Below are positions 15,671 through 49,515 of a stretch of 64,000 nt of DNA, in pieces. The notes below the pieces were generated by a model that was not told the origin of the DNA, made no database searches, and saw nothing but the letters and a program-made list of their open reading frames with translations. The position numbers and the translations under genes are program-made. This DNA comes from Chryseobacterium arthrosphaerae (lineage in GTDB: Bacteria > Bacteroidota > Bacteroidia > Flavobacteriales > Weeksellaceae): assembly GCF_001684965.1 (NCBI RefSeq), contig NZ_MAYG01000023.1, forward strand, positions 336,017 through 400,016, given 5' to 3'. Positions within the stretch are counted from its first letter, which is position 1; the number at the start of each line of letters is the position of its first letter.

Positions 15671-15685
15671 GACAGCCATTTTTAT
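15653..15685. terminator. Bidirectional terminator between HxlR and lectin genes
   Basis: GCTGTC (15655-15660) pairs with GACAGC (15671-15676) over a 10-base loop. On the minus strand a run of T follows, serving the lectin pair; on the plus strand the flank is CATTTTTATT, serving hxlR. It overlaps the HxlR stop codon. Confidence 0.8.
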
Positions 15686-16470: not shown

Positions 16471-16484
16471 GTGTTTCCTTTTTA

Positions 16485-24390: not shown

Positions 24391-25062
24391 CTACATACTT
24401 GAATTATAGTATCCGTTTTCCACACAGAAACGGATCAGGTGAAGTTTTGTTTTCAGGCCAAGCTTTTCTGTAAGACGGTTGATGTAAGTGTCAATAGTTC
24501 TTGTACTCAGATTAAGTTTTTCCGCAATTTCTTTGTTGCTGAACCCTTCATAGCAGAATCTCATCAGCTGTATTTCGGCCGGGGAAAGCTCTTCCTGTCC
24601 CTTTTTCTGCCTGTCCATATACTCCTGCACTGCAAGGGGCTGCTGTTCCCATTCTTTGGAGTAGGCTTGGTAATCAAACTCTTCAGAAGCTATGCTGCCT
24701 TTGATAATATCTTTAATGATGGTGCTCTTTTTCTCACAATAATAGATATTGGGTATTTTGGCCAGAATATCTGCCATGTCTTCCTGGTAGGTGCCGGAAT
24801 ACGTGATAATAGGTGTTTCAGAATTATTTTTTCTGATGTATTTGATAGCTTCAATTCCGCTTAATACCGGCATAAACAATTCGATGATGAACACATCTTC
24901 CTGTCTTCTGTAGATTCTGTTCACAAGTTCATGCCCATTATTACAGTCGTTCAGAAGCATATAAAAAGGATTCTCCATCAGTGTTTTGATCATTATTTTC
25001 TTAAAATAAAAATCACTGTCTGCAATTGAGAAACGCACGGTATTAGATAATATTTTACTCAT
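24391..25062 (-). CDS. Atypical response regulator with LuxR-type DNA-binding domain
   Basis: The 223-residue protein has a receiver-like domain (about 8-125) and a C-terminal LuxR/NarL helix-turn-helix (about 155-215, 'LSPAEIQLMRFCYEGFSNKEIAEKLNLSTRTIDTYINRLTEKLGL'). In the receiver the phospho-acceptor Asp is replaced by Glu61 ('IIELFMPVLSGIEA' where 'LLDlxMP' is usual), a change that can mimic the phosphorylated state. No histidine kinase gene is beside it. It is divergent from the tss operon starting 180 bp away, so it is a good candidate for the regulator of the secretion genes. This link is inferred. Confidence 0.88.
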   Translation of the reverse strand: MSKILSNTVRFSIADSDFYFKKIMIKTLMENPFYMLLNDCNNGHELVNRIYRRQEDVFIIELFMPVLSGIEAIKYIRKNNSETPIITYSGTYQEDMADILAKIPNIYYCEKKSTIIKDIIKGSIASEEFDYQAYSKEWEQQPLAVQEYMDRQKKGQEELSPAEIQLMRFCYEGFSNKEIAEKLNLSTRTIDTYINRLTEKLGLKTKLHLIRFCVENGYYNSSM

Positions 25063-25210
25063 TTTTCAATATCGATTTGGCGAATGATATTTAAAATTCC
25101 GAGGCCTAATTTATGAAAAACTTATTAAAGAGGAAATTAATATTAATTTAATCAGGGTTTTCACGAAACCGGCCTGGGGAAATTACGTATTGTGCATAAA
25201 ATTTTTTTTT

Positions 25211-25218
25211 TATATTTT
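25211..25218 (+). promoter_or_regulatory. Possible -10 box of the tss operon
   Basis: TATATTTT differs by one base from TAnnTTTG and lies 25 bp before the chosen tssO start. No clear -33 box is visible. Confidence 0.35.
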
Positions 25219-25242
25219 CACAGGCCAAACAAATCGCAAATT

Positions 25243-25779
25243 ATGTCTTCGAACAGGGAAAAAAAATTAAACAAATCTGACGTCAGAATAGGCATTTGGA
25301 AGTTTATTCTGTCTTTTGCTATTTTGTCAGTAGTATCATTCGCATGTCTGTTTCTCTTCTTTAAGAGCTACGACATACAGCGGGAAGGGATCAGCAAGGA
25401 CTCTGAAGCCTACAAAGAACTGATGCTCCGGAGCGACGTGCTGAAAAATCAAGTTGACGAAATCTATGATAAAATGGCCCAGCTTAGTCTTAATAAGGTG
25501 GAAAATGAGGTTTTTCTCAGAACCAGTATTATGGATAACGTAAGAGACGTTAAAAATATTATGAAAGCAGACAGTGTTCAGAATTTTAAACATTATGCTG
25601 TACTGATGAAACAGATAGAACCCATGCTGAAATTAAAAGCAGACATCATGGTTGTGGAATCCCGCAAAAAATTTGCGAAAAGGGATCTTGAAGACTGTAT
25701 GAACAAAATAGACAGAGCCAACAGCGAGCTTAGAAAGGATCCTACAAGAAATTTTACAGGAAGTAAAAGAAGAAGATAA
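25243..25779 (+). CDS. tssO: T6SS-iii membrane protein, TssO-like
   Basis: The product starting at ATG 25243 has 178 residues; a longer reading from 25192 adds 17 residues with no sign of being used. It has a basic N-terminus, one membrane helix (about 20-43, 'FILSFAILSVVSFACLFLFF') and a long charged, coiled-coil-like periplasmic part. Length and layout match TssO, a Bacteroidota-specific component of subtype iii type VI secretion. It opens a four-gene operon with the PKD and TssR genes. I rely on order and topology more than on motif matches. Confidence 0.75.
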   Translation: MSSNREKKLNKSDVRIGIWKFILSFAILSVVSFACLFLFFKSYDIQREGISKDSEAYKELMLRSDVLKNQVDEIYDKMAQLSLNKVENEVFLRTSIMDNVRDVKNIMKADSVQNFKHYAVLMKQIEPMLKLKADIMVVESRKKFAKRDLEDCMNKIDRANSELRKDPTRNFTGSKRRR

Positions 25780-25790
25780 AAAGAAAAGAT

Positions 25791-26315
25791 ATGCAAGGAC
25801 AAATCACATTATCTAAAAAGGAAAGGCATTATCAGTTTTTTTATTTAATACTGATGCTGATCACTGCCATGATATTTTTGGGCATCATTTTTCTGAAAGG
25901 ATTTGTATCTCCTTTTTCTGATGAAGATGTAAGAGGAATCCAGAACCTGGAACAGAAAGCTGAATTTGAACAGCACCAAAAAGTTATTTTACCGATCATG
26001 GACAGCACTTATACTATGATCACCAAACTTACGACTGACGGCCCGCAGCCTTTTGCTGAAAATAATATCCAGTTGGGAGTGAATGATCTTAACAGCTATT
26101 TCAGCAACAATAACGTCATCGATATTCGAAAGGACGCCTATCCTCAGATTGCCAAATTTTACAAAATGTATTTTGAAGACAAAAAGGTAATTGCAACAAC
26201 CACAGAAGATATTAAGATCTTTGAAAAGCAGGTGGAAGACTGTAGAATCGGATTTAAAGATAAACAGAACAAAATTTACGAACGCGAAAAAGACCTGAAG
26301 GCAAGAACGCAGTAG
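25791..26315 (+). CDS. T6SS-iii membrane protein, TssP/TssO-like
   Basis: The 174-residue product mirrors its neighbour: short cytosolic N-terminus, one membrane helix (about 17-37, 'LILMLITAMIFLGIIFLKGF'), then a helical periplasmic domain. In Bacteroidota loci this slot is occupied by a second small TssO-type protein, named TssP in some schemes; databases may call either. Gap to tssO is 11 bp. It likely forms part of the membrane or periplasmic scaffold of the apparatus, which is an inference from position. Confidence 0.7.
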   Translation: MQGQITLSKKERHYQFFYLILMLITAMIFLGIIFLKGFVSPFSDEDVRGIQNLEQKAEFEQHQKVILPIMDSTYTMITKLTTDGPQPFAENNIQLGVNDLNSYFSNNNVIDIRKDAYPQIAKFYKMYFEDKKVIATTTEDIKIFEKQVEDCRIGFKDKQNKIYEREKDLKARTQ

Positions 26316-26369
26316 GGAAAGCATGGAAATACTAGGAACTAAAAATAAAACACATCACAATTATTAACT

Positions 26370-27281
26370 ATGAATTATTTTCAAAAGAACAAGAAGAACA
26401 TTATTATTGGTGTTATAGCAACATTGCTCATTGCGGCACTGGTTGCTTTGTGGCTGCAGAAAAAAGTGATTCACTCTGCCGATGATATTGTTGGAGTGGT
26501 TTACCCTAACTCTCTGGCAGTAGGAGATACCCTTTTATTTGAAGATAAAACCCAATTTGCAAAAACCAAAAGATGGAATTTCGGAGACGGTACAACTTCT
26601 GATAAAAGCAATGGTATACACTTCTACAATAAACCCGGATATTACCAGGTAAGTTTGATCATAGACAACAAGTATACGAAGTCTTTCCCGGTAATGGTAA
26701 ACGCAAGAAGCATCCAGAAAGCCAAAGATACGGCACAGATCAAAACAACGATTGAGGCGCCGGCTCAGGCTATGCAGAATGAAAATGTGTCTTTCCGCGC
26801 CGTTTCAGAAGCTAAATCGTTTGCATGGAAATTCGGGGAAACAGGAGGTACGGATGCCAAAGAAAAATTTGCTATTTATTCTTATAAACAGCCGGGAGAT
26901 TATCTGGTAACCCTGCTTACCGAAGAAAATGAAAACCCTGTCTACCACCGCATCAAAATTCTTCCTGCTTATAATGCCCTTGCGGAAGAAGAGGTATCTG
27001 TAGAAGATTCTTATGCCAAAATAGATGATGATTTCAAATACCACCTGCAGCAGATTGCTAACGGAAACAGCTTCAATATGCACTACAACTACCTGCTGAA
27101 AACTTATCTGTGTAACAATGAAAATACAGTGGTGAAAGTAAATGACAGCAAGGTAAACAATTTTTATATGTATTGTGCAGGCCTTCAGTTTGACAAGAAT
27201 ACCGTAATTCAGACTGTAAAAGTGAATTTCGATGATAAGCAGAATTGCGTAACGAAAGTAGATATCAACCAAAGCAAATAA
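26370..27281 (+). CDS. T6SS-associated PKD-domain membrane protein (TssQ position)
   Basis: The 303-residue protein has one N-terminal membrane helix (about 11-29) followed by two PKD-like Ig folds: 'KRWNFGDGTTSDKSNGIHFYNKPGYYQVSL' (about 65-95) and 'KSFAWKFGETGG....FAIYSYKQPGDYLVTL' (about 145-180). Both have the W-x-F-G-D/E and Y-x-x-PG-x-Y hallmarks. In T6SS-iii loci a PKD protein is found between tssO/P and tssR, so it is probably a periplasmic structural piece that may contact peptidoglycan. The exact Tss letter is uncertain. Confidence 0.75.
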   Translation: MNYFQKNKKNIIIGVIATLLIAALVALWLQKKVIHSADDIVGVVYPNSLAVGDTLLFEDKTQFAKTKRWNFGDGTTSDKSNGIHFYNKPGYYQVSLIIDNKYTKSFPVMVNARSIQKAKDTAQIKTTIEAPAQAMQNENVSFRAVSEAKSFAWKFGETGGTDAKEKFAIYSYKQPGDYLVTLLTEENENPVYHRIKILPAYNALAEEEVSVEDSYAKIDDDFKYHLQQIANGNSFNMHYNYLLKTYLCNNENTVVKVNDSKVNNFYMYCAGLQFDKNTVIQTVKVNFDDKQNCVTKVDINQSK

Positions 27282-27328
27282 TACCGTCCGGAATTCCGGA
27301 TGCGCCAATCATAAAAAGATAAAATAGG

Positions 27329-29734
27329 ATGAAAAATAAATTTCCTCTAGCAGCATATTATATAGGGTTATCAGTATTATTGACGAGTTGCCAGGTAAAG
27401 CTTCCGTCTAAGAAAACCCCCGAGCCTTCTCAATACAGTATGGTAGACGGCTCTCCCGTAGTCAACGGATTTCCTAAAAAGTCAGTGCCTTGGATTGTGG
27501 TTTCAGACCGTTCAAGAAATACGGCTTATCTGGATAAAGATGATGAAAAGTCATACAAAGAAGTGAAATTCCTGGAGCCTCTGATGGTGCTGAAACACAG
27601 GGACGGAATGGTAAAAGTAGCAGAATATGTTCCTGATGCTTTAATGAAAAAAGTTTCATCAAAATCCATTAAAACATATGGCTGGATTCCTGAATCCGAC
27701 CTGCTTCTGTGGAACAATTCCCTGAAAAGCGAAAGAACAGGATATCCCGTAAGAGTAGCGGTAGTGCCGAACAACAGCGAAGTCATCAGAAGTGCTGAAA
27801 GGTACTATAAAAATGACTCGATCATGGTGTTCAACTCACCAAGCCTTATTGAAACAGCCAATGTGAAAATTCCTAACGGACAGATGGTATATGTTTACAA
27901 ACAGGCTGAAAATAACAAGAGATTCCTGGTAGGGAAGAAACCCACTATTGATATAGACAGCATTGGCACCAGCCTTTACGGTTGGGTAAGTTCCAATGTG
28001 ATCTCCACATGGGGTGAGCGCTCTGCCATAAAGCTGAAAAATACAACAGGAATCAGTGATACCGGTTTAGGAATCCATGAAGGGTATCCGGGCGGATCAG
28101 CATCAGATGCAGAAAACAAAACGGCAATTCTTCTTACAGATGTCAATAAAAGACCTCCGCTAGAAAATATTTTCCCGGTAACTTTACCATTGGAAGGAAC
28201 CCCTACTCCTGATCTCAAGACGAAATATTTTACCAATATTTTAGATTACAGCAAGAATTACGTATTCAACGTTTTGGGTGAGGAAATTTATTTCGACCGT
28301 TATAAGGAGATTACGGAAAGAGATAAGAAAATGAATATTGTTTTTGCATTGGATATCAGTGCTGCCAATGCACCGTATGCTTCCATTGTAAAATCATTAT
28401 TACAGGATCTTCAGCTTAGATTTGAAAAACCGTCTTATTTCAGTACTGTAAAATATGGGGTGGTTTTATATAAAAATAATCCTTGCGGAAATAATGTTTC
28501 CGTTTCTAACCTGAGCACTGATTACAGCAAAATTACGACGTTTATCACTGAGAAGAGTAATGAAATGAACTGTGCGAGTAACAGCGGCTACCAGCCGGTA
28601 GGTGAGGCTCTTTCTGCAGCCGGAAACCTTCTTTCAAATGTTCCTGATGAAACCAATATCGTAGTGACTGTAGGGACCTCTGCCAGCCAGAGCGGGAATA
28701 TGTACAGCGTGATAAGTTCCCTTACACAGGCTCAGGCAAGACTGATTATGTTCCAGACCAATGCAAGATCTTCAGATAACTACAACGATTTTGTATTGAT
28801 GGCAGAAAATGTGGTAACTAACACCGCAAAAAATATTGCTGAACTTAAAAAACAGAAGATCACTGACCAGTATGATGTTCTTACCAAAAATAACTTCAGC
28901 CTGGTAGAAGGCGACGAAGGATTCTTCTCGCTGGCCTATCCTAAGCAAAGTATGTCTCAGGGCTTTGTAATCTTCCCTAAAAAAGGTGATGTTGCAACGC
29001 CTGGATTCCTGAAAAAATCTGTAGACAGCCTTATTGCACAGGTAACGGTAGATAACCAGAATATTGATAAATCACTTAATAACTATTTCCACTCTTCTGT
29101 AGGAGCGGGTAAAACAGATGTTGATCTGAAGTACAAGTATCTGTATCCGGGGCTTACCAATCCTGTATCTGCAGGAATTGCTGCACAGCTGATCAACTAC
29201 GGAAATCCGTTCCTGGTAAAAGGATACATTCCAAAAGATCTGAAAGATTATGAGCCAGCCATAGAAAAAGGGATCCTGATTTCTGAAACAGAATATGATA
29301 ATCTGAAAGCTTTCTACACAGAAGTATATAAGAATACCGAAGCAGATCGTCCGAACTTTAACCAGGCAAAAGCCGTGAAGGAATATGTGAAACTGCTGAA
29401 GAAGTACAATCCTACCATTAAATTCCTGGATAAAGGAGAGCTTTATGAGCTGCCAATGTCCTATGCAATTGGAATGAGTACAGGATTCGACCTTTCAGAA
29501 GAAGAACTGATGGCGAAATATAAGCTGAAGGGATGGAAAAAATCAAAAGTAGTTCCTAGTGAGACCGTAAGAAATTATTTCCAGCATTATAAAAATCTGG
29601 CAGACAGAATGCTTGCCAACAGAAATAATCCTGCAGTAAAAATTCAGCAGAACGGACAGACATTCTACTGGCTTAATGAATACTTTACCCCAACAAGGAT
29701 CCCAAGAGAACAGCCGGAGTATACTAAACATTAA
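27329..29734 (+). CDS. tssR: T6SS-iii lipoprotein TssR
   Basis: The 801-residue lipoprotein has a signal sequence ending 'SVLLTSC' (C21). It carries an SH3-like N-terminal part and a von Willebrand A-like region from about residue 335 ('MNIVFALDISAANAPYASIVKSLLQ') to about 480 ('NIVVTVGTSASQSG'), though the MIDAS motif is incomplete. Length, lipobox and position after the PKD gene match TssR of Bacteroidota T6SS. It probably anchors the apparatus at a membrane. The operon ends at a clear terminator 20 bp on. Confidence 0.85.
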   Translation: MKNKFPLAAYYIGLSVLLTSCQVKLPSKKTPEPSQYSMVDGSPVVNGFPKKSVPWIVVSDRSRNTAYLDKDDEKSYKEVKFLEPLMVLKHRDGMVKVAEYVPDALMKKVSSKSIKTYGWIPESDLLLWNNSLKSERTGYPVRVAVVPNNSEVIRSAERYYKNDSIMVFNSPSLIETANVKIPNGQMVYVYKQAENNKRFLVGKKPTIDIDSIGTSLYGWVSSNVISTWGERSAIKLKNTTGISDTGLGIHEGYPGGSASDAENKTAILLTDVNKRPPLENIFPVTLPLEGTPTPDLKTKYFTNILDYSKNYVFNVLGEEIYFDRYKEITERDKKMNIVFALDISAANAPYASIVKSLLQDLQLRFEKPSYFSTVKYGVVLYKNNPCGNNVSVSNLSTDYSKITTFITEKSNEMNCASNSGYQPVGEALSAAGNLLSNVPDETNIVVTVGTSASQSGNMYSVISSLTQAQARLIMFQTNARSSDNYNDFVLMAENVVTNTAKNIAELKKQKITDQYDVLTKNNFSLVEGDEGFFSLAYPKQSMSQGFVIFPKKGDVATPGFLKKSVDSLIAQVTVDNQNIDKSLNNYFHSSVGAGKTDVDLKYKYLYPGLTNPVSAGIAAQLINYGNPFLVKGYIPKDLKDYEPAIEKGILISETEYDNLKAFYTEVYKNTEADRPNFNQAKAVKEYVKLLKKYNPTIKFLDKGELYELPMSYAIGMSTGFDLSEEELMAKYKLKGWKKSKVVPSETVRNYFQHYKNLADRMLANRNNPAVKIQQNGQTFYWLNEYFTPTRIPREQPEYTKH

Positions 29735-30013: not shown

Positions 30014-30158
30014 TCGTAGAATTACGACAAGAAATCGTAGAACTACTACAATTTTTCAGATTTATGGTGAAAAGTTTTTTTTAGAAAAAAAGAGCCTCTA
30101 TATTTGCTATACAATCACCGAATCACAAAATATTATTAACGATTAAAATTTACAAATC
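30014..30158 (+). promoter_or_regulatory. hcp1 upstream control block with two 15-bp repeats
   Basis: TCGTAGAATTACGAC (30014-30028) and TCGTAGAACTACTAC (30035-30049) repeat with a 21-bp period, two helix turns. The first is an inverted repeat TCGTA-gaat-TACGA. A -10 box TATATTTG lies at 30099-30106. The leader (AACGATTAAAATTTACAAATC before ATG) is shared by all three hcp genes. The layout fits an activator bound upstream. Confidence 0.8.
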
Positions 30159-30572
30159 ATGGCAGAAAGAAATTCGAGAGGAATCTTAAAATTCAACAAC
30201 GGCGAAGGACAGAAATTATTAAAAATGAACTACAGCGTATCGAGATCTACAGACGTATCCGGACGTGTAGCATCAGATCCTTCCAATGCATTGATCAAAG
30301 TTACAGTAGAAGCTACTGACAAATCAGACATCCTTGAAAGCTTACTGAACGGAAAATATAAGCCTACGGTAGGAGAGATTGTTTTCAACAAATCTCACGA
30401 AGAAGGAACACTGATCACCCTGAAATGGGAAAACGGATATGTGATCCAGCACGAAGTAGACTTTGACGCTATTGACAGCAACAGTATGTTGATCAGTTTC
30501 GTAATCAGTGCAGAAGGAATTGACTATGGAAACTCACGTTTCGATGGTTTATGGCCTGCAGCTGGTAAATAA
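30159..30572 (+). CDS. tssD: T6SS tube protein Hcp/TssD (copy 1)
   Basis: The 137-residue protein belongs to the Bacteroidota TssD (Hcp-like) family: 'GILKFNNGEGQKLLKMNYSV' opening, 'WENGYVIQHEVDFD' and an end with 'SFVISAEGIDYGNSRFDGLWP'. Hcp hexamers stack to form the inner tube expelled by the contractile sheath. It is identical in protein sequence to copy 3 and differs from copy 2 at residues 54 and 134. It has its own promoter and terminator, as expected for a protein needed in large amounts, and precedes vgrG1 by 170 bp. Confidence 0.95.
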   Translation: MAERNSRGILKFNNGEGQKLLKMNYSVSRSTDVSGRVASDPSNALIKVTVEATDKSDILESLLNGKYKPTVGEIVFNKSHEEGTLITLKWENGYVIQHEVDFDAIDSNSMLISFVISAEGIDYGNSRFDGLWPAAGK

Positions 30573-30742: not shown

Positions 30743-32674
30743 ATGAAAACCGAATTGTCAACGAAGGGACCATCTTTCCGGCCTGCTCAAAATGCAGATG
30801 CCATATCTGAGAACCATCATACAGGAATCAACCGGCTGGTAAAGCTGTCGCTGGTGGTGGAAGGTAAGATTATTAAATACTATAAACATTTCACCCTTAA
30901 GCAAAAAGCAAATCACCACCACGAATTCAATCTTATTTTAGCCCATGATGCGTTGGGAGACAGACAAAGTCATACTCTTGAAGAAGCGAATAAATTCCTT
31001 GGGAAGCGGCTCACAGCAGTGATTGCCTATAAAGATATTGAAAACAGTCCGGAAAGGAATTTTGTGGGAATCATTACCAAAGTAGGTTTCAGCCAGGAAA
31101 AGATGAGCCTTGGGAATATTGTAATTTCAGGATACAGTCCTACTATTTTGCTGGATGGAGCTCCGCATATCCAGAGTTTTGGCGGCGGACAGGCTGTTAA
31201 TATGGGAATCATTGCGGAAGAAGTAATCAGACAGGGAATTGATAAAGGGCGTTTTGATATAAGAGTGGATACGAATGACTATTCTCAGATCATCTACAGC
31301 AGCCAGTATAATGAAACGCATTACAATTATCTCGCAAGGATGGCAGAAGCCTATGGCGAGCAGTTTTATTATGATGGTGAAGTATTGCACTTCGGGAAAC
31401 TTCCGCCTCAGAATAAGCCGATCAAACTGGTCTACGGAAGCAATGCGAATGATATCAGGGTAGAGCTGAAGGCTGTTCATACAAAACCACAATATTACGG
31501 TTACAACAGCAGCAAAAATGAAAAACTGACTTCAGGGGAAACACCTGTAAAACATTTGGGGGATCTTGCCCAAACAGCATACAGCCATAATGAAAATATA
31601 TATAAAACGCCGGCACTTCAGGTAGCACCCATCAAAGCATCTACCCATCTGGACGTAGAACATTCCCAGAGAAGCACTGCAGGAAGTGAAGCTGTAAGTG
31701 TATTCTCAGTTTCCGGTTCTACAACAGTTCCGTTTCTGCACCCCGGTTGCGTTGCAGATGTTTATATGAGAAAACCTGACAGCAATGAAACCTCTTATTT
31801 TACCAAAGTGATGATTACGGATGCCGTTCACGAAATTGATACCATCGGTCACTATACCGGAAGTTTTGAATCCATTGCAGCCGACACAGGATTTTTACCC
31901 AAACCTGAATTTACAGTTCCTGTCGCACAACCTCAGATCGCAACCGTGGTAGCCAATGCAGACCCTGAAGGACAGGGAAGGGTACAGGTAAGATTCGACT
32001 GGCAGATGAATGATACGACGCATTTTGTACGGGTTATGAGCCCGGATGCCGGAGGAACAGACAGAATTACCCAAAACCGCGGTTATGTAGCCATTCCCGA
32101 AGTAGGAGATCAGGTTATGGTCAATTTTGTACACAATCATCCTGACAGACCTTTTGTCATGGGCGGAATGTTCCACGGCGGAATCGGCCTTGGAGGCGGA
32201 ATCGATAACCGTGTAAAATCTATCCAGACCAGGAGCGGGCACAAAGTAGTCTTTACAGAAGATGAAAGCATTATCATCACAGATAAAAGCGGCAATGAGA
32301 TCCATCTGGATACTACAGGAAGCAATATCACCATCACAGCCCCGGAAACCATGACCCTGAACTGTAAGAATATGAATATTAATGTGGGGGAGAATATGAA
32401 TACAAGTGTAGGGATGAATAAATCTGACAGTATTACCATGAATCATACTGAAAGTGTAGGGATGATGAAAAATATTTCTGTGGGAACTAACTTTATGACG
32501 AATGTTGTAGGTAAAATGGTAGAATTTATTACAGGAAATAAAGAATCTCATACAGAAAAAGACAGGCTTCGGGTAAGCAATGGAAAAATAACAGCTCAAA
32601 GTACAGGTTCTTATGAGCAGCATTCTGAAAAAGAGATACAAAATAATTCAGGAGAAATATCTAAAAACCATTAA
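30743..32674 (+). CDS. vgrG: T6SS spike protein VgrG/TssI (copy 1)
   Basis: The 643-residue protein has the gp27-like part with 'RNFVGIITKVGFSQEKMSLGNIVISGYSP' and 'ETHYNYLARMAEAYGEQFYYDGEVLHFG', the gp5 OB fold near residues 400-480 ('DPEGQGRVQVRFDW', 'VAIPEVGDQVMVNFVHNHPDRPFVMGGMFHGG'), and a C-terminal beta-spike of short repeats rich in Asn, Met and Val. VgrG trimers cap the Hcp tube and carry effectors. The C-terminal end is unlike that of copy 2, and only 2 bp separate it from a large putative effector gene. It lacks the 72-residue N-terminal extension of copy 2. Confidence 0.95.
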   Translation: MKTELSTKGPSFRPAQNADAISENHHTGINRLVKLSLVVEGKIIKYYKHFTLKQKANHHHEFNLILAHDALGDRQSHTLEEANKFLGKRLTAVIAYKDIENSPERNFVGIITKVGFSQEKMSLGNIVISGYSPTILLDGAPHIQSFGGGQAVNMGIIAEEVIRQGIDKGRFDIRVDTNDYSQIIYSSQYNETHYNYLARMAEAYGEQFYYDGEVLHFGKLPPQNKPIKLVYGSNANDIRVELKAVHTKPQYYGYNSSKNEKLTSGETPVKHLGDLAQTAYSHNENIYKTPALQVAPIKASTHLDVEHSQRSTAGSEAVSVFSVSGSTTVPFLHPGCVADVYMRKPDSNETSYFTKVMITDAVHEIDTIGHYTGSFESIAADTGFLPKPEFTVPVAQPQIATVVANADPEGQGRVQVRFDWQMNDTTHFVRVMSPDAGGTDRITQNRGYVAIPEVGDQVMVNFVHNHPDRPFVMGGMFHGGIGLGGGIDNRVKSIQTRSGHKVVFTEDESIIITDKSGNEIHLDTTGSNITITAPETMTLNCKNMNINVGENMNTSVGMNKSDSITMNHTESVGMMKNISVGTNFMTNVVGKMVEFITGNKESHTEKDRLRVSNGKITAQSTGSYEQHSEKEIQNNSGEISKNH

Positions 32675-32676
32675 TC

Positions 32677-34635
32677 ATGAGTGTGTGTAAAGAGTCTTAT
32701 ATAGGAGGAGATTATATTGAAATTACTGGTGGAAGCTGCAAAGTTTATGCAAAAGATAATATAAATAATATCTCTGTAAATGGTCCATTTGGACAGAATG
32801 GTTTAAAAAATGGTGTTTTGTATGCTACTAATGGGCAAGCACCAATAATTGGAGCAGAGGATTTAGATTTCTATGTTGATATATTTAGATCAAATAGCCA
32901 AAATCCAGATAATTTTGGAAAAAAGGATTCTGATTATAAAGGAACATTTGGTTTTGATAGGTATAATGAAAATACAAGTGGGAAAGGCAAACAGTCCGTA
33001 AGTGGTTTTGATGTTATGCATTTTAATGGTATAAAATATTATACACCATGGATCTCTTTATGGCCCCCAAAACAGAATTTACAATCTATTTCTGAAATTG
33101 ATTCTAATTACAATCCTGTAACAAGTGCAGTACTTGTTTTAAAAGTTTTACCTGGGAAAACTTCTAATGGAAACGCTAAGATATTTATCTCTTCTGATAA
33201 TCTCAATATTAAAATCGATAATAATGATTCTGTTACGAAGGAAACATCGATAAATGGTACTATAATCATTACTGTTTCATGTGTAGGTGTTTTAGAAAAA
33301 GATGCCAAGATAGAGATAAAGCAAAACGATCAATATGGTATTGTTGTTGGCAAATTGAAAATTATAAAAAATAATGTTGTCTATATTGCCAATACTAAAT
33401 TTATTACCGTAATAGAAGAAGAACAGGTCACAAATAATGAAAAAAAATTGCAAAAAAGAGAAGCTGAAAAAAAGGAATTTCAAAATCTTATAAAAGATGT
33501 AATTACTTATCTTAATACTAACTCTTTAAATCAATCTCTTATCTATATAAAAGGTACAGTAGAAGATATTTTTGTAATAGATAAAGGAGAGATAAAAAGG
33601 AATGCTGGAGAAGGAGTATATAGCAATAGTATAACTATTCCTTATTTTGAAGGTAAACATCAAGACAAAGCAATAGATGATACTAAAGAAACTAAGGAAG
33701 AACGTGAGTTAGATAAGGCAATTAAAAATCTTTATAATGCACTAAATAAAAATTATAATAAATATAAGAAAAATACATATTATTGTAGTGATACAGTAAA
33801 TAATACTGATCAAGAATTGTTTAAAATTTATGAAGAAAAATATCAAGCATATCTTAATACTTTAACTGGTAATCAAAAGATAGGGGGAAAAGAAAGAAGA
33901 AATGATACAATCTATGTTTTTATAGATAAAAATCAAGAAACATTGGATATTGGTGGTTTTAGCTATTATGGATATACTTTAGGAGCAGATAATGTAGCTT
34001 TTGTATTTAATAAACATGTGAAAGAAAGGAAATTTGGAACCTTTGCTCATGAAATAGCCCATTCATTAGGGCTAGATCATACTTTTGAATTAAGGGATAA
34101 AGAATATAGGAGTAATAAAACGCTTGATGCTGATATAATACAAAAGGAAAAATTACTAAAAGAAAAACAACAAAATAATTCTCCACAAGTATTAAATAAT
34201 AGCGCTGTTAATGCGCAAACAAGGTTTACACGGATAATGGAGAAAAATTTACATTATCCAATTGTGCAGAAGCCAGAACAAATTTCAGCAAATTTTGGGG
34301 GAAGTAAAGAAAAATATTATCTTCATATAAGCTCAATGTTTAGTTCTTTAAAATTATTAGCTAATTCTGAAGGAGCTGTCTCTCAATCACAGTCTCAGGG
34401 TATAGATCCAGTTGCTTCATTACAAAGTGATATAAATGAACTTAAAACAAAGAGACAAGCCAATGAAAATAAATATATTGATGTGGATATTTCAGCTACA
34501 CAAGAAAATTTCATGGATTACGATTATGATTCTAATAATACTCATAATCCTAATTTTGAACCTAAAAGTTTATGGTATTGGCAATGGAAGGAATTACAGA
34601 ATAGTAAATTTTTAATCAAGAAAGTTATAAAATAA
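32677..34635 (+). CDS. Putative T6SS effector with metzincin-type protease domain
   Basis: The 652-residue protein has an N-terminal 'YIEITGGSCKVYAKDNI' segment like that seen at the start of many Bacteroidota T6SS cargo proteins, a middle beta-rich part, a charged coiled-coil-like stretch (about 245-265), and a zinc-protease site HEIAHSLGLDH at 458-468 (HExxHxxGxxH). A Met-turn candidate 'NFMDYD' is at about 611-616, with a long insertion of about 145 residues before it. The gene begins 2 bp after vgrG1 and is more AT-rich than it. I infer an effector loaded on VgrG1; the target is unknown. Confidence 0.8.
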   Translation: MSVCKESYIGGDYIEITGGSCKVYAKDNINNISVNGPFGQNGLKNGVLYATNGQAPIIGAEDLDFYVDIFRSNSQNPDNFGKKDSDYKGTFGFDRYNENTSGKGKQSVSGFDVMHFNGIKYYTPWISLWPPKQNLQSISEIDSNYNPVTSAVLVLKVLPGKTSNGNAKIFISSDNLNIKIDNNDSVTKETSINGTIIITVSCVGVLEKDAKIEIKQNDQYGIVVGKLKIIKNNVVYIANTKFITVIEEEQVTNNEKKLQKREAEKKEFQNLIKDVITYLNTNSLNQSLIYIKGTVEDIFVIDKGEIKRNAGEGVYSNSITIPYFEGKHQDKAIDDTKETKEERELDKAIKNLYNALNKNYNKYKKNTYYCSDTVNNTDQELFKIYEEKYQAYLNTLTGNQKIGGKERRNDTIYVFIDKNQETLDIGGFSYYGYTLGADNVAFVFNKHVKERKFGTFAHEIAHSLGLDHTFELRDKEYRSNKTLDADIIQKEKLLKEKQQNNSPQVLNNSAVNAQTRFTRIMEKNLHYPIVQKPEQISANFGGSKEKYYLHISSMFSSLKLLANSEGAVSQSQSQGIDPVASLQSDINELKTKRQANENKYIDVDISATQENFMDYDYDSNNTHNPNFEPKSLWYWQWKELQNSKFLIKKVIK

Positions 34636-34636
34636 T

Positions 34637-35365
34637 ATGAGTAATAATTTCTTTATAATTTTGATTTTATTTATATTGACTTCAAATAGTTGTGCTACAG
34701 CGCAAGATTTTTCAAAGTATAAAACTATTGATGATGTAAAAAGAGAAAATAGTTACTGTAATCAACGATTTTCTAAGGATGGAAAATTCCTGAATGGTTT
34801 CTATAAAGTTTCATCAAAAAAAGGTTCCACCATTTTTGCTAGCTATAAAGATGGATACTATAAGGAAGTGTTTAATCAGTCGAAAGGTATGCTTTGGTCA
34901 AAAGAGAAATTCAATGAAGATAATAATTTAGTAGAGTATGTATCATATTTTAATCCCAAAAGAATTAAAGAAGACGAATATTATCAGGTGCAAAAATATG
35001 ATTCAATAAAAACATTTTTTCAACCACACTTTCCTGAAAAATCTATTATATATTTTAAAAATAAGATGTATATTTTAAACTATACTGTTGAAAGTAAATA
35101 TTTAAAAATTACTACAGAACTGGATAATTTTAAAATTTTTAATTCAATGGATGTCTTTATGGCAATACCAGCTAAATTTTTCTTTTCAGACTGTTATAAT
35201 AGTAAATTCATTTTTGGAAATAATTCAGATTACAGAAATAGAGAACTATATGTAGAAATAAAAAATACTAATAAAACGATTCAACAAAAATTTGTAGTAG
35301 GAGATTCTAACAAAAAGGATTCTGAAATTAATTATTTTGATTATTTTGAAATAGAGAATTTATAA
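34637..35365 (+). CDS. Lipoprotein, candidate immunity protein for the metzincin effector
   Basis: The 242-residue product has a signal sequence with a likely lipobox 'LTSNSC' (C19). No family is recognised. It begins one base after the effector stop (TAATATG) and shares its AT-rich composition, so the two move and are expressed together. A periplasm- or membrane-anchored partner is what one would expect for immunity to a protease delivered to the periplasm. The function is inferred only from position. Confidence 0.65.
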   Translation: MSNNFFIILILFILTSNSCATAQDFSKYKTIDDVKRENSYCNQRFSKDGKFLNGFYKVSSKKGSTIFASYKDGYYKEVFNQSKGMLWSKEKFNEDNNLVEYVSYFNPKRIKEDEYYQVQKYDSIKTFFQPHFPEKSIIYFKNKMYILNYTVESKYLKITTELDNFKIFNSMDVFMAIPAKFFFSDCYNSKFIFGNNSDYRNRELYVEIKNTNKTIQQKFVVGDSNKKDSEINYFDYFEIENL

Positions 35366-35388
35366 AGGAATCCTCTAAGTTATATTAA

Positions 35389-38047: not shown

Positions 38048-40543
38048 ATGGGAGTACTAGTAACCAACGAAACAGTAAAGCAACTATTTCATATTGCTCA
38101 GTCGATAGCGAAGGAAAACTATAATGGAACGTATGGAGGTCCGCATATTCTGCAGGCTTTAATGCATAAAGATATCGGCCTTAATGAATTCCTGAAAAGC
38201 ATAGATAAAGATCCTGGATATTTCTATGAATGGGCAGACGTCCGTATTGAAGAATATCCTAAAACAGCACACCTGCCGGATGAAGTAGGGCAGGACGATG
38301 CTGTAGATACCCTTATAGAAGAAGCAGATGATATCCGTCTGAAACTGGGACTGGATGAGATTACCCCCATCTGTATTCTGACAGCCATTGTAAAACCTCA
38401 GGTGGTATTCTCTCTTCAGCAGCTGAAATCACTTCCGCTCAGAGAACATGAAATCTTTAACCTGTACAGAAAAGATACACCGTTTACCGTTTCAGAAGAT
38501 GGAGATTTCTCATCAATATTTTCCAACGGATCAGATTATACAGATTCCTCCTTTCCTTCTATTAAAAGCTATTGTGTAGACAGAACAGCACAGGCAAGAA
38601 AAGGAGAACTTGAAAATATCATCGGTAGAGACAAAGAATTGAGAATGCTGGTGGAGATCCTTTGCCGGAGAAGCAAACCGAATGTAATCATTATCGGAGA
38701 GCCGGGAGTAGGAAAAACAGCATTGGTAGAAGGTTTTGCCATTGAAATTACAAAAGGGAACGTTCCGGAGATGCTTAAAAACGGAACCCTTTTAGAGCTG
38801 GATACCGGAGCATTGCTTGCAGGAACCTCTTACAAAGGTGAAATTGAAGACCGTCTGAAGAAAGTGATCAATGAATGTAAAAAAATTGAAAAAGCAATCC
38901 TTTTCATTGATGAGATCCACACCCTTTTAGACCCGAAAGGAAGCATCGGAAACGTAGCCAACCTTTTGAAACCTGAATTGGCAAGAGGAGAAATTACCGT
39001 AATCGGAGCAACTACCCAGGAAGAATACAGAAAAATTATTGAGCCGGAACAGGCTTTCAACCGTCGTTTCGAGGTATTAACCGTTAATGAGCCGGATGAA
39101 AAGACCTGTGTGAAAATGATTGACGTACTCCTTGAAGGCTACAAAAAACACCATGGCATCGAGGTGGAAAAAACAGCCCTTCCGGAATGCGTACGTCTGG
39201 CAAAAAGATATGCAAAAGGTAAGAAATTACCGGATGCGGCTATTGACTTGTTAGACAGAACGATGGCTGCCATCAAAATGCTTGATGAGCTTTCAGAAAA
39301 AGAACTGGACAGCTGGAAAGAAAGCTATGATGCCATCTTAAAAGAAGAATATGCAGACAGCAAAGACAAAGCTGACGAGCTGATCTGGACGTATAATTTA
39401 TTAAGGGATAAAATAAGCCCTATTCTCTGGGGATCCCTTAGTGAACAACCTGCCCTGGACAACGCTATGCCGGTAGATCAGATCCAGAAGATCATTGAAG
39501 ATACCTATGCAGAGCTTTTACAGCATGCAGCAAAGAAAAGAGAAAAAGTAGACCGTCTTGAACTGGCTGCTGTAATGGCTGCCAAAACCAATATCCCGAT
39601 CGGGAAAATTCAGGCACAGGAAAAAGAAAAGCTCCTGAATATGGAATCCCTTCTCCTAAACAGGGTAGTAGGGCAGGACCATGCTCTAAAAATCCTTTCC
39701 GATGCTATCGTAGAAAACCGAAGCGGATTAAACAAACCGGGGCAGCCGATAGGATCATTCTTCCTTTTAGGACCTACCGGAACCGGTAAAACAGAGCTGG
39801 CAAAATCTATGGCAGAATTGCTTTTCAACGATGAAAAGGCCATGGTACGTTTCGATATGTCAGAATTCAAAGAAGAACATTCTGCAGCGTTATTGTATGG
39901 TGCGCCTCCGGGATATGTAGGTTATGAAGAAGGAGGGATGCTGGTCAACAAAATCAGACAACAGCCTTATACCGTTGTTTTATTTGATGAAATTGAAAAA
40001 GCCCACCATTCCGTTTTTGATGTATTCCTTCAGATTATGGACGAAGGAAAAGTACATGATAAACTGGGGAAAGAAGGAGACTTCAGCAATGCTCTGATTC
40101 TCTTTACCTCCAATATCGGAAGTGAAGAAATTGTAAAACAGTTTGAAGAAGGCAAAGTTCCGGAATCATCGTCACTGATGCAGATCATGTCAAACTCAGG
40201 CAGATTCAGACCGGAATTCCTGGCAAGAATTACAGAGATCATTCCTTTTGCACCGATCACGGAATCTATTGCAGAAAGAATCTTCAATATCCAGCTGAAA
40301 TCACTTCATACCTCGCTGACGAGACTGGGAATTGCTCTGCAGATCAGTGATGATGCTGTGAGAAACCTTGCATTGGGAGGATTCAGCAGTAAATATGGAG
40401 CGAGACAGATCTCGGGAGTGATCCGTGCACAGCTTGCCAGACCAATCTCTAAAATGATTGTGAGAGAAGAAGTAAAATCCGGCCAGACCATCCATGTAGA
40501 CTGGAATAAAGAAGAAGATAAACTAAGCTGGAAAGTAGATTAA
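38048..40543 (+). CDS. clpV: T6SS ATPase ClpV/TssH
   Basis: The 831-residue AAA+ protein has a Clp N-domain (1-150) and two ATPase modules, with Walker A GEPGVGKT at 217-224 and GPTGTGKT at 575-582, and Walker B 'ILFIDEIHTLL' and 'VVLFDEIEKAH'. Its length and domain order are those of ClpV-type unfoldases; the middle domain is short as in the Bacteroidota versions. ClpV takes apart contracted sheath for re-use. A chromosomal ClpB would have a longer middle domain, and the neighbourhood supports ClpV. It is preceded by a 277-bp gap and followed by a terminator. Confidence 0.9.
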   Translation: MGVLVTNETVKQLFHIAQSIAKENYNGTYGGPHILQALMHKDIGLNEFLKSIDKDPGYFYEWADVRIEEYPKTAHLPDEVGQDDAVDTLIEEADDIRLKLGLDEITPICILTAIVKPQVVFSLQQLKSLPLREHEIFNLYRKDTPFTVSEDGDFSSIFSNGSDYTDSSFPSIKSYCVDRTAQARKGELENIIGRDKELRMLVEILCRRSKPNVIIIGEPGVGKTALVEGFAIEITKGNVPEMLKNGTLLELDTGALLAGTSYKGEIEDRLKKVINECKKIEKAILFIDEIHTLLDPKGSIGNVANLLKPELARGEITVIGATTQEEYRKIIEPEQAFNRRFEVLTVNEPDEKTCVKMIDVLLEGYKKHHGIEVEKTALPECVRLAKRYAKGKKLPDAAIDLLDRTMAAIKMLDELSEKELDSWKESYDAILKEEYADSKDKADELIWTYNLLRDKISPILWGSLSEQPALDNAMPVDQIQKIIEDTYAELLQHAAKKREKVDRLELAAVMAAKTNIPIGKIQAQEKEKLLNMESLLLNRVVGQDHALKILSDAIVENRSGLNKPGQPIGSFFLLGPTGTGKTELAKSMAELLFNDEKAMVRFDMSEFKEEHSAALLYGAPPGYVGYEEGGMLVNKIRQQPYTVVLFDEIEKAHHSVFDVFLQIMDEGKVHDKLGKEGDFSNALILFTSNIGSEEIVKQFEEGKVPESSSLMQIMSNSGRFRPEFLARITEIIPFAPITESIAERIFNIQLKSLHTSLTRLGIALQISDDAVRNLALGGFSSKYGARQISGVIRAQLARPISKMIVREEVKSGQTIHVDWNKEEDKLSWKVD

Positions 40544-42340: not shown

Positions 42341-42485
42341 TCGTAGAATTACGACAAGAAATCGTAGAACTACTACAATTTCTGAGATTTATAGTGAAAA
42401 GTTTTTTTTAGAAAAAAAGAGCCTCTATATTTGCTATACAATCACCGAATCACAAAATATTATTAACGATTAAAATTTACAAATC
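42341..42485 (+). promoter_or_regulatory. hcp2 upstream control block with two 15-bp repeats
   Basis: The same TCGTAGAATTACGAC (42341-42355) and TCGTAGAACTACTAC (42362-42376) as upstream of hcp1, with the same 21-bp period, a TATATTTG box at 42426-42433 and an identical leader. From 42341 to the start codon it differs from the hcp1 block at only a few positions. Confidence 0.8.
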
Positions 42486-42899
42486 ATGGCAGAAAGAAAT
42501 TCGAGAGGAATCTTAAAATTCAACAACGGCGAAGGACAGAAATTATTAAAAATGAACTACAGCGTATCGAGATCTACAGATGTATCCGGACGTGTAGCAT
42601 CAGATCCTTCCAATGCATTGATCAAAGTTACAGTAGAAGCTACTGAAAAATCAGACATTCTTGAAAGCTTACTGAACGGAAAATATAAGCCTACGGTAGG
42701 AGAAATTGTTTTCAACAAATCTCACGAAGAAGGAACACTGATCACCCTGAAATGGGAAAACGGATATGTGATCCAGCACGAAGTAGATTTCGACGCTATC
42801 GACAGCAACAGTATGCTGATCAGTTTCGTAATCAGTGCAGAAGGAATTGACTATGGAAACTCACGTTTCGATGGTTTATGGCCTTCGGCAGGTAAATAA
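42486..42899 (+). CDS. tssD: T6SS tube protein Hcp/TssD (copy 2)
   Basis: The 137-residue tube protein differs from copies 1 and 3 only by D54E and A134S. At the DNA level it is nearly identical over the whole gene, so the copies have been kept alike by conversion or recent duplication. It precedes vgrG2 by about 200 bp and has its own terminator. Having one hcp in front of each vgrG module suggests that modules spread by duplication. Confidence 0.95.
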   Translation: MAERNSRGILKFNNGEGQKLLKMNYSVSRSTDVSGRVASDPSNALIKVTVEATEKSDILESLLNGKYKPTVGEIVFNKSHEEGTLITLKWENGYVIQHEVDFDAIDSNSMLISFVISAEGIDYGNSRFDGLWPSAGK

Positions 42900-43101: not shown

Positions 43102-45255
43102 ATGTTTCAGGATGACAAAACAATTAAAGTAGAGAACCCGAAGACTACTGTAAAAGGCAGTAAGGAGAAGTTGAAGGATGCAGCCAAAGAAAATATTGCC
43201 CAAAAAACAGATGCAAAATTAAATAAAGCGGGAGATCATATAAAAAATACTGTAAAAACAGAACAACAGGGGGCAGATATGTTCATGAACCAGACTTTTG
43301 TTCCGAACAACCCGTCTATCGTTGAAAATAAAGTGTGGGCCAGGCAGCCTACCTCAAAAATACATAATGCCGAAGCAATCCCACAAAGTATTATCGCCGG
43401 TATCAACCGTGTGGTGAAGCTGGATATCGTGATTGAAGGGCAGATGATTAAGCATTTCAAGCATTTCAAACTGGTGCAGAGTGCGAGCAAACATCATGAA
43501 TTTAATCTGACACTTGCCCATGATACTTTAGGAAGTGCTGAAAATCATAACCTGGAAAATGCTCAGAACTTTTTAGGAAAGAGAATTACAGTGGTCTTCA
43601 AATATAAGGATATTGATAAAGGAGCAGAACGAAACTTTGTAGGAGTTGTGACGGAAGTTGGTTTCAGTCAGGAAAAGGGAAGTCTTGGGAATATCGTTCT
43701 TAAAGGATACAGTCCCACTGTACTTCTGGATGCAGCTCCGCATATTCAGAGCTTTGGAGGAAGCCAGCCGGTCAGCCTGAACAGTATTGCAGATCATGTC
43801 ATCAGAGAAGGCCTTGGACAAAATAAATTTGACTTCAGGGTAGATGCCCAGTATGGCAATGTTTCCTATAGCTCACAATACGAAGAAACCCATTATAACT
43901 ACCTTGCCAGAATGGCGGAAGCTTACGGTGAGCAGTTTTACTATGACGGTGAAGTGCTGCATTTCGGAAAACTTCCCCCTCAGGAGAAACCTGTAAAACT
44001 TACTTATGGAAGCACCGTAAGTGATATTGCCATTAAAATGAGAGCACAGCATGTAAGCCCGACTTTTTATGGCTATAACAGCAGCAAAAATGAAAAGCTT
44101 ACTGCCGGAAGTTCGAAAATAAACCATACCTCTGATATTGCCAGAAGGGCCTATGAAATCTCAGAAAAAACCTTTACTACACCTTCTTTGAGAGTTGCTC
44201 CCATCAAAGCTTCATCTTTTATGGATATCGATGCTTCTCAGAAAGGAACCGCAGGAAGTAAGGCCTCAGAAGTTTTTATCACTTCAGGAACTACAACAGT
44301 ACCTTTCCTCTATCCTGGATGTACCGCTGATATTGAAATGCGTAAGGCAGACAGTAGTGATACATCTTACTTTACCAAATTGATGATTCTGGAAGTTACC
44401 CATGAAGTAGATGCAAGAGGATATTATGACGGTCAGTTTGAAGCAATTGCCGCCGATACAGGTTTTATCCCACGGCCGGAATTCGAAACCCCAAGAGCAG
44501 AAGCCCAGTTTGCCAAAGTAATTTCCAATACGGATCCTTTAAACCAGGGAAGAGTTCAGGTCCAGTTTGATTGGCAGAACGGCCCTGATATCTCAGAATT
44601 TATCCGTGTCATGTCACCTGATGCCGGAAGCAGTGATAAAGTCAATAAGAACCGTGGCTTCATGTCTGTACCGGAAGTAGGAGACCAGGTGATCGTCAAC
44701 TTCGTACACCAGCATCCTGACCGCCCGTTTGTGATGGGGGGAATGTACCATGGAGGTATCGGAGGCGGTGGTGGTGCCGGAAATAATATTATGAGCTTAA
44801 GCAGTAAAAGCGGAAATATTATCCAGTTTCATGACGGATGCGGAATTGAGATTAAAGACCGAAGCGGAAATCATGTTACTTTGAGCGGAACAGGAAATAT
44901 AGATACAAAAGTAAGTAACAACAGCAAAGAAGAGATCGGAAACGACAGTACAGTAAAAATTGGAAATAAAAGTACTGTTAATGTCACTTCAAAAAGTACC
45001 CATACTGTGGGAGAAGAGCAAAGTGTTCTTACAATGGGGAGTGATGGAGTTATTGATCTGAGTGGGAAAACTTCCGTTAAGATAAAAGTATCTGATACCA
45101 GTTATATTGAAATTACCAGTACCAAAATCATTATTGAAAGTGATATCATTGAAATAAAAGGAAAAACTTCCTCTACAATTACAGGAAGTGGAAGTGCAAA
45201 AGCTGTTTTTAATGGAAAAACTGTTGTCGAAGGAAAGCCTGTAGAAATAAATTAA
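43102..45255 (+). CDS. vgrG: T6SS spike protein VgrG/TssI (copy 2)
   Basis: The 717-residue protein has the same gp27/gp5 core as copy 1 ('ERNFVGVVTEVGFSQEKGSLGNIVLKGYSP', 'EVGDQVIVNFVHQHPDRPFVMGGMYHGG'). It has an extra Lys-rich N-terminal stretch of about 72 residues ('KTTVKGSKEKLKDAAKENIAQKTDAKL') and a different C-terminal beta-spike ('KVSNNSKEEIGNDSTVKIGNKSTVNV', ending 'VVEGKPVEIN'). The tip likely selects the cargo coded just downstream: a LysM protein starts 4 bp on. Confidence 0.95.
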   Translation: MFQDDKTIKVENPKTTVKGSKEKLKDAAKENIAQKTDAKLNKAGDHIKNTVKTEQQGADMFMNQTFVPNNPSIVENKVWARQPTSKIHNAEAIPQSIIAGINRVVKLDIVIEGQMIKHFKHFKLVQSASKHHEFNLTLAHDTLGSAENHNLENAQNFLGKRITVVFKYKDIDKGAERNFVGVVTEVGFSQEKGSLGNIVLKGYSPTVLLDAAPHIQSFGGSQPVSLNSIADHVIREGLGQNKFDFRVDAQYGNVSYSSQYEETHYNYLARMAEAYGEQFYYDGEVLHFGKLPPQEKPVKLTYGSTVSDIAIKMRAQHVSPTFYGYNSSKNEKLTAGSSKINHTSDIARRAYEISEKTFTTPSLRVAPIKASSFMDIDASQKGTAGSKASEVFITSGTTTVPFLYPGCTADIEMRKADSSDTSYFTKLMILEVTHEVDARGYYDGQFEAIAADTGFIPRPEFETPRAEAQFAKVISNTDPLNQGRVQVQFDWQNGPDISEFIRVMSPDAGSSDKVNKNRGFMSVPEVGDQVIVNFVHQHPDRPFVMGGMYHGGIGGGGGAGNNIMSLSSKSGNIIQFHDGCGIEIKDRSGNHVTLSGTGNIDTKVSNNSKEEIGNDSTVKIGNKSTVNVTSKSTHTVGEEQSVLTMGSDGVIDLSGKTSVKIKVSDTSYIEITSTKIIIESDIIEIKGKTSSTITGSGSAKAVFNGKTVVEGKPVEIN

Positions 45256-48957: not shown

Positions 48958-49101
48958 TCGTAGAATTACGACAAGAAATCGTAGAACTACTACAATTTTT
49001 CAGATTTCATGTCAAAAGCTTTTTTATCAGGATCAACCGTTTTATATTTGCTATATAATTATTGAACAACAAAATATTATTAACGATTAAAATTTACAAT
49101 C
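48958..49101 (+). promoter_or_regulatory. hcp3 upstream control block with two 15-bp repeats
   Basis: TCGTAGAATTACGAC (48958-48972) and TCGTAGAACTACTAC (48979-48993) are identical to those upstream of hcp1 and hcp2. The stretch between them and the TATATTTG box (49043-49050) has diverged, while the leader is again conserved. Conservation of just these two parts suggests both are functional. Confidence 0.82.
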
Positions 49102-49515
49102 ATGGCAGAAAGAAACTCAAGAGGAATCTTAAAATTCAACAACGGCGAAGGACAGAAATTATTAAAAATGAACTACAGCGTATCGAGATCTACAGACGTA
49201 TCCGGACGTGTAGCATCAGATCCTTCCAATGCATTGATCAAAGTTACAGTAGAAGCTACTGACAAATCAGACATCCTTGAAAGCTTACTGAACGGAAAAT
49301 ATAAGCCTACAGTAGGAGAAATCGTTTTCAACAAATCTCACGAAGAAGGAACACTGATCACCCTGAAATGGGAAAACGGATATGTGATTCAGCACGAAGT
49401 AGACTTCGACGCTATCGACAGCAACAGTATGCTGATCAGCTTCGTAATCAGTGCAGAAGGAATTGATTATGGAAACTCACGTTTCGATGGTTTATGGCCT
49501 GCAGCTGGTAAATAA
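49102..49515 (+). CDS. tssD: T6SS tube protein Hcp/TssD (copy 3)
   Basis: The 137-residue protein is identical to copy 1. A clear terminator follows, and no vgrG is next to it; polA comes next. It is thus a stand-alone hcp, or the left edge of a lost module. The leader lacks one A compared with the other two copies. Confidence 0.95.
   Translation: MAERNSRGILKFNNGEGQKLLKMNYSVSRSTDVSGRVASDPSNALIKVTVEATDKSDILESLLNGKYKPTVGEIVFNKSHEEGTLITLKWENGYVIQHEVDFDAIDSNSMLISFVISAEGIDYGNSRFDGLWPAAGK

Follow-up and report, generated by a model that had tools for sequence, protein, structure and literature searches.

An inverted-repeat operator centred on hcp genes of the Chryseobacterium T6SS-iii and its probable NarL/LuxR-type activator

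The T6SS-iii gene cluster

The window, i.e. the whole stretch of 64,000 nucleotides of Chryseobacterium arthrosphaerae DNA analysed here, harbours genes of a T6SS-iii, as judged by Pfam matches of 40 window reading frames to TssO (PF17561), TssR (PF17643 with PF20780-PF20782) and TssD (PF17642). The cluster comprises two tssO genes, a gene coding for a PKD-domain protein, tssR, three hcp genes, two vgrG genes, clpV and cargo genes. The two tssO genes, the PKD-domain gene (probable tssP) and tssR are located on the forward strand (25192..29734), divergent from a regulator gene on the reverse strand (24391..25062). The three hcp genes, all encoding TssD proteins on the forward strand, are found at 30159..30572 (hcp1), 42486..42899 (hcp2) and 49102..49515 (hcp3) and have 400-403 of 414 bases in common. 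A vgrG gene lies behind hcp1 (30743..32674, forward) and another behind hcp2 (43102..45255, forward), each probably co-transcribed with the preceding hcp gene, and a ClpV-type AAA ATPase is encoded in the same cluster (38048..40543, forward). TssC (PF17541) is encoded elsewhere in this genome, outside the window, and is not recognised by PF05943.

TssO, TssR, TssD and a PKD-domain TssP-like protein are likewise found in the Bacteroidota T6SS-iii treated in PMC10781749. The portion of that paper covered here notes a multi-locus organisation in Chryseobacterium, contains no match for LuxR and one for “regulator”, and does not describe the present operator.

The island behind the first vgrG gene (32677-36600) contains genes for a reprolysin-like metallopeptidase and an RHS-repeat protein, which are probable cargo. 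A gene of the Immunity protein 22 family (DUF4284) is located near the end of the cluster (53496-53894), and two adjacent C-type lectin domain genes form a tandem at 15682-17270.

Operator repeats upstream of the hcp genes

Each of the three hcp genes is preceded by two copies of a short element on the forward strand. Upstream of hcp1, the distal copy (TCGTAGAATTACGAC) occupies positions 30014..30028 and the proximal or core copy (TCGTAGAACTACTAC), the equivalent of the single site at other promoters, positions 30035..30049. The window pattern scan and promoter alignments place the distal and proximal copies of hcp2 at 42341..42355 and 42362..42376, and those of hcp3 at 48958..48972 and 48979..48993. 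An earlier sequence-only reading had reported these repeats about 145 bp before the hcp starts, and its positions are exact to the base: the copies are 21 bp apart at all three promoters, and the first copy lies 145, 145 and 144 bp ahead of hcp1, hcp2 and hcp3, respectively. A -7 box follows at 30099..30106 for hcp1 (TATATTTG, 49 bp after the proximal site; consensus TAnnTTTG in the covered part of PMC9723704), at 42426..42433 for hcp2 and at 49043..49050 for hcp3, all on the forward strand.

The promoters of hcp1 and hcp2 are nearly identical. The hcp3 promoter, where repeats and leader were said to be kept while the intervening sequence has diverged, indeed shows this pattern in an alignment with hcp1: the repeat block is identical in 37 of 37 bases, the -7 box in 8/8 and the leader in 31/32, and the 35-bp spacer ahead of the -7 box in 17/35.

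A single imperfect inverted repeat, TMGTAG-WW-YTACKA(C), constitutes the operator unit. At the window hcp genes the 21-bp pair, which had been taken as the form of the operator, is real, but it is not the unit itself. As an obligate unit the pair is rejected: among the matches listed for 19 genomes, 58 of 103 site groups are devoid of a second site when a wider pattern is used (a narrow pattern had at first given 64 of 103). Many hcp genes thus have the tandem as an addition to the basic unit. With the wider pattern and the same matches, 43 of 65 hcp groups possess a second site 21 bp upstream, as do two of the 15 groups for which no gene was recognised (one of the two at 2-3 mismatches); none of the 23 vgrG, LysM, clpV or 164-aa family groups does. 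A control with other offsets yields 0/618. The spacing of these pairs is 21 bp (46 pairs) or 42 bp (two pairs), with no other spacing within 120 bp.

Within the window, a scan allowing up to three mismatches adds two further matches, both of them the same palindromes read on the reverse strand. The total of 8 at three mismatches is unremarkable given a mean of 2.95 in shuffled sequences, of which 3/100 reach 8; the strength of the motif lies in its exact matches, not in this bare count.

Target genes in the genome and the genus

The 5.05-Mb genome contains the exact pattern at 10 places, six of which are the three window pairs, and one further site with a single mismatch. The other four exact sites and the single-mismatch site stand alone: two precede hcp followed by vgrG, two precede vgrG and one precedes a gene for a 164-aa protein. 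The whole-genome search proposed by the sequence-only reading thus returns exact and single-mismatch sites solely before hcp, vgrG or one uncharacterised gene, the latter being counted as T6SS-linked only because the operator is present at the same gene in other genomes, which is circular. Seven two-mismatch places (L006-L012) were rejected as further regulon members and look like background; inspection of the ORFs listed around them reveals no hcp- or vgrG-like gene, and at the two-mismatch level the whole genome contains more matches to a reversed control pattern (39+34) than to the motif (16+3). Of the six hcp genes in this genome, one (G000:C1:2392969; L335:2949-3353) is without a site; the end of the gene before it lies about 104 bp upstream. 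At tssB-tssC (L328) no site is present when up to two mismatches to the pattern used are allowed, and the window scan finds none at the tssO-R operon or at the promoter of the regulator gene.

In related Chryseobacterium genomes the operator is conserved before hcp, and among the matches listed for 19 genomes no exact site occurs at an unrelated gene. Neighbourhoods were read for the 103 site groups among the matches listed for 19 genomes (including the genome of the window, G000, with the window itself excluded). All 70 groups with an exact site precede hcp (51), vgrG (8, plus 1 with the palindrome reversed), LysM (4), clpV (2) or 164-aa family genes (4). The 33 groups with one-mismatch sites only, again among the matches listed, include 19 before hcp or vgrG and 14 without a recognised gene; 20 of the 33 have a box at +49, three more have it reversed, and the 10 boxless groups look like background. 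The proposed “hcp regulon switch” therefore holds as to an hcp-centred operator, but the regulon is wider and extends to stand-alone vgrG and LysM-adaptor genes. Judging from site positions, clpV is possibly part of the regulon in some genomes; its control is uncertain because 456-675 bp separate it from its sites (505 and 570 bp for the two exact groups in the 19-genome listing).

A scan of GTDB contigs for the composite promoter yields at least 119 loci, of which, among the matches listed, 115 are from Chryseobacterium, three from one Weeksellaceae MAG and one from Elizabethkingia. The 131 composite promoters among these matches precede recognised regulon genes in 121 cases (hcp 95, vgrG 19, clpV 5, LysM 1, 164-aa family 1) and unrecognised genes in four, while six run off the locus; this set overlaps with the 19-genome set (e.g., L211) and is not independent of it. 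Conversely, when up to one mismatch to TMGTAGWWYTACKAC is tolerated, a site lies within 400 bp of 33 of 34 hcp genes. To avoid choice by motif, 22 of these genes were hand-picked from TssD lists (L335-L354), L335 and L336 being included for their lack of a listed site, and the other 12 came from regulator-anchored regions (L173-L181). In control scans, simply shuffled sequence contains 0.0003 sites per gene, and 27,720 positions hold no match to the reversed pattern.

Promoter architecture

The distance between operator and core promoter is nearly invariant. Among the matches listed for 19 genomes, 69 of 70 exact groups (68 direct and one reverse, with L093 as the exception) show a TANNTT (-7 type) box beginning exactly 49 bp beyond the site, and the fuller box TANNTTTG is found at 49 bp in 74 of all 103 groups. 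From 34 non-redundant promoters the consensus TCGTAGAAtTACtACAa.tttT.AaAttt emerges, followed by an A/T-rich stretch with a T-run where the -33 element would lie.

Box types known from Flavobacterium psychrophilum recur here. The covered part of a promoter study of this species (PMC9723704) gives TAnnTTTG, spanning -12 to -5, as the sigma-A box of flavobacteria and ascribes motif SM5, with TAnnTTGY in that position, to an alternative sigma factor; that part contains no match for “t6ss” or “type vi” and does not describe the upstream operator. Among 230 distinct promoters with the 49-bp spacing, 166 of the 171 hcp promoters carry TAnnTTTG and in this respect resemble flavobacterial sigma-A promoters. 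The 35 stand-alone vgrG and LysM promoters comprise 10 with TTTG, 11 with TTGY, 6 with TTGG and 8 others; accordingly, 17 of the 35 (e.g., L077, L082, L084, L085, L097 and L106) have TAnnTTGY or TAnnTTGG, not TAnnTTTG, and the TAnnTTGY box at many of them is akin to the SM5 class (PMC9723704, same part).

If the box spans -12 to -5, the 49-bp spacing puts the centre of the site at about -69.5. A second spacing of 22 bp is found at hcp genes of three sister genera (g77, g96 and g75; L173, L174, L175 and L195-L199), and two others (g92 and g94) have 49 bp at hcp. The 22-bp and 49-bp spacings would bring the site centres near -42.5 and -69.5, the places of class II and class I sites, respectively. 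The sites are thus located at a fixed distance upstream of a core promoter, as are activator sites of class I and class II promoters, and the two discrete spacings with their class I versus class II geometry point to an activator. Some results deviate: the spacing is 48 bp at one Chryseobacterium hcp gene (L338) and, in sister genera, at LysM or tssB sites whose boxes are poor (L191, L194 and L326), and for two hcp sites of one genome (G172) the scanned orientation shows a box at neither 22 nor 49 bp.

The candidate regulator

The protein encoded at 24391..25062 on the reverse strand, next to tssO, is the only recognised transcription factor among the 40 Pfam-scanned window reading frames, an HU-type protein at 23816 aside. 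It combines a C-terminal GerE/LuxR helix-turn-helix (HTH; PF00196, E 3.2e-15, 55.9 bits, cut-off 23.5) with an N-terminal receiver (PF00072, Response_reg, E 2.5e-9, 37.7 bits, cut-off 30.2). This is the domain set of the NarL/FixJ family, but the phosphorylatable Asp is replaced by Glu (residue 61). The window protein and the best 120 of 364 matches have Glu at this position in 120 of 121 cases and Asp in one, and hence the protein is not filed as a phosphorylation-controlled response regulator. In 55 locus sequences the position is occupied by Glu (43), Asn (8), Asp (2), Ser (1) or a gap (1), and ten sister-genus sequences have Asn (8), Ser (1) or Asp (1). Lys111 and Ser89 are invariant in 176 rows, and no kinase domain is present among the 40 scanned window reading frames.

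A receiver lacking the Asp is the hallmark of aspartate-less receiver (ALR) regulators, a known class that includes RitR of Streptococcus pneumoniae (PMC4395418, in the part covered). The window regulator shares with RitR the receiver domain with a replaced Asp and differs from it, going by the same part of that source, by its NarL/LuxR-type HTH, its T6SS-iii linkage and the replacing residue, which is mostly Glu in Chryseobacterium and Asn in sister genera. Among solved structures, EvgA is the nearest in sequence (E-value 3.7e-13); it has the same REC plus GerE architecture and aligns the Asp of its IIDVDIP stretch with E61 of the regulator. EvgA keeps the Asp and works with a kinase. In contrast, the window regulator has Glu for Asp, lacks a kinase partner among the 40 scanned ORFs and is linked to a different regulon.

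Regulator and operator largely occur together in the genus. Among 98 genomes, 95 contain the motif at up to one mismatch (a noisy count, as the reversed control matches 0-7 times per genome), 95 contain TssD, and an intact regulator ortholog (E below 1e-120 with the window protein) is encoded in 93. Three genomes (G067, G072 and G079) have neither TssD nor any site. One of these, G067, represents a natural loss: a regulator remnant with four stops persists between RNase G/HU and polA (L146), together with a TssC fragment containing a stop, in the absence of TssD and sites. G053 encodes only a second TssD type (E about 1e-48) and no regulator ortholog, and its two single-mismatch sites are both located inside or beside other genes. 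In G021, TssD, TssC and sites are present and the regulator is not found in an assembly that is 90% complete and split into 360 contigs. A second T6SS-iii type in the genus (L147:6070-9587) features a different TssD and three tandem hcp genes followed by vgrG, without the operator.

Beyond Chryseobacterium, the family sample yields regulator orthologs with 59-65% identity from six further genera; a search of 196 genomes of the order (E up to 1e-25) finds none outside the family. The regulator gene directly precedes tssO in the same direction in nine of ten sister-genus regions, the tenth (L177) holding no neighbour; the divergent arrangement is that of Chryseobacterium. Among 120 family genomes, the regulator is found in 21, the exact motif TMGTAGAAYTACKAC in 21 and both in 20, figures that ignore the kinship of these related genomes, so that a Fisher value computed for them does not represent a true probability, and that cannot separate the regulator from another T6SS gene, as regulator and T6SS type are inherited together. 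None of the 14 regulator-free genomes among the 35 with TssD has an exact motif, and exact sites in the 120 genomes total 92, as compared to 13 for the reversed control.

Several family genomes deviate from this pattern. G304 encodes a 59%-identical regulator and has no exact site; variant sites (TCGTAGTATTACTAC) with a box at 49 bp are present. One exact site occurs without TssD or TssC in G305. In G358, an hcp-vgrG island (L322:5595-6119) carries a one-mismatch site in a genome without regulator (E up to 1e-25) or TssC; this island is probably a relic, or perhaps was acquired. A TssB-like gene and tssC of G339 lie downstream of an exact site (L326:429-2454), and from this arrangement the regulon of that genus may have come to include sheath genes. 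A two-mismatch pattern was also tried on ten sister-genus genomes, and its matches were rejected as mostly background.

A model for operator function and its alternatives

Target specificity, conservation in relatives and fixed promoter geometry make an hcp-centred activator operator a well-supported reading of the repeats. They probably serve as binding sites for an activator dedicated to the T6SS-iii, for which the NarL/LuxR-type protein encoded beside tssO is a strong and the most likely candidate. A regulator dimer would bind each inverted repeat TMGTAG-WW-YTACKA; bound at the core site 49 bp upstream of the -7 box, it would recruit RNA polymerase through an upstream contact. At many hcp genes, a second dimer site two helical turns further upstream may confer stronger expression, and the two dimers may bind cooperatively. 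Since the receiver has Glu or Asn for Asp, the regulator probably is controlled not by aspartyl phosphorylation but by its level or by another signal. The predicted regulon corresponds to the consumable part of the weapon, comprising the Hcp tube, the VgrG spike, LysM adaptors and cargo islands. Tube, spike and adaptors are spent when the T6SS fires, and a regulon dedicated to ammunition therefore makes sense.

The most serious alternative, to which we give roughly a one-in-six chance, leaves the operator intact and assigns it to another factor, encoded elsewhere and likewise confined to genomes with this T6SS type. The link between regulator and sites consists of co-occurrence and synteny, not binding; the regulator promoter and the tssO operon, being without a site, offer no autoregulatory signature; and G021 has sites where no regulator was found. 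On the other hand, the protein is alone among the scanned window ORFs as a recognised transcription factor (HU-type aside), it adjoins tssO in the window and directly precedes tssO in sister genera, and NarL/LuxR-type HTHs commonly bind short inverted repeats. Should the same protein bind as a repressor that silences hcp and vgrG until a signal arrives, which we regard as improbable, its non-phosphorylatable receiver would be equally suitable, and the 22-bp spacing class overlaps the -33 region, where repressors also act. Yet the common site is far upstream at a rigid distance (69 of 70 exact groups at 49 bp among the matches listed), an exactness that repression does not obviously need, and the existence of two separate distances recalls the geometries of class I and class II activation.

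Two further explanations address the repeats themselves. LytTR sites consist of 9-bp direct repeats separated by about 12 bp and so have a 21-bp period, and 46 of the 48 pairs among the matches listed for 19 genomes are 21 bp apart, as expected if an AgrA-like LytTR-type regulator bound the pair as two direct repeats. This is nevertheless very unlikely: two obligatory direct repeats are at odds with the 58 of 103 listed groups that lack the second copy, each copy is itself an inverted repeat that is also found read in reverse, and no LytTR domain occurs among the 40 scanned window reading frames. The least credible proposal, with next to no chance of being correct, holds that the repeats are kept merely because the three hcp promoters are recent duplicates or gene-converted. 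The near identity of the hcp1 and hcp2 promoters and of the three hcp genes fits this idea, but the hcp3 spacer has diverged to 17/35 and the sites have not, and the same 49-bp spacing is found at vgrG and LysM genes and in other genera. Conservation by duplication alone was thus rejected, being refuted by the relatives.

Relation to described T6SS regulation

The statement that no operator of this form had been described agrees with the top-listed papers of the open PMC library, in whose titles and abstract starts no regulator or operator for a Bacteroidota T6SS is described; subscription papers mostly are outside this scope. A 2023 review on T6SS regulation (PMC10482370) shares the subject, i.e. 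transcriptional control of T6SS genes, and its main text contains no word beginning with Bacteroid, T6SSiii or Flavobact. A base-exact operator together with a named candidate regulator makes the control of Bacteroidota T6SS testable.

More tentatively, and with less than even confidence, we envisage a portable cassette of operator, exact 49-bp spacer and -7 box that places dispersed islands of vgrG, hcp and adaptor-cargo genes under one master regulator, which acts independently of phosphorylation and travels with the T6SS core. If so, the level of ammunition could be set apart from the machine itself; the main sigma factor would serve the hcp promoters, and a second, SM5-like one many of the stand-alone vgrG and LysM promoters.

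The operator may also be employed as a finder for scattered T6SS genes, such as adaptors, orphan vgrG islands and the 164-aa family. The latter (L001:2118-2612) has no Pfam match and repeatedly carries the operator, which makes it a candidate T6SS component or cargo.
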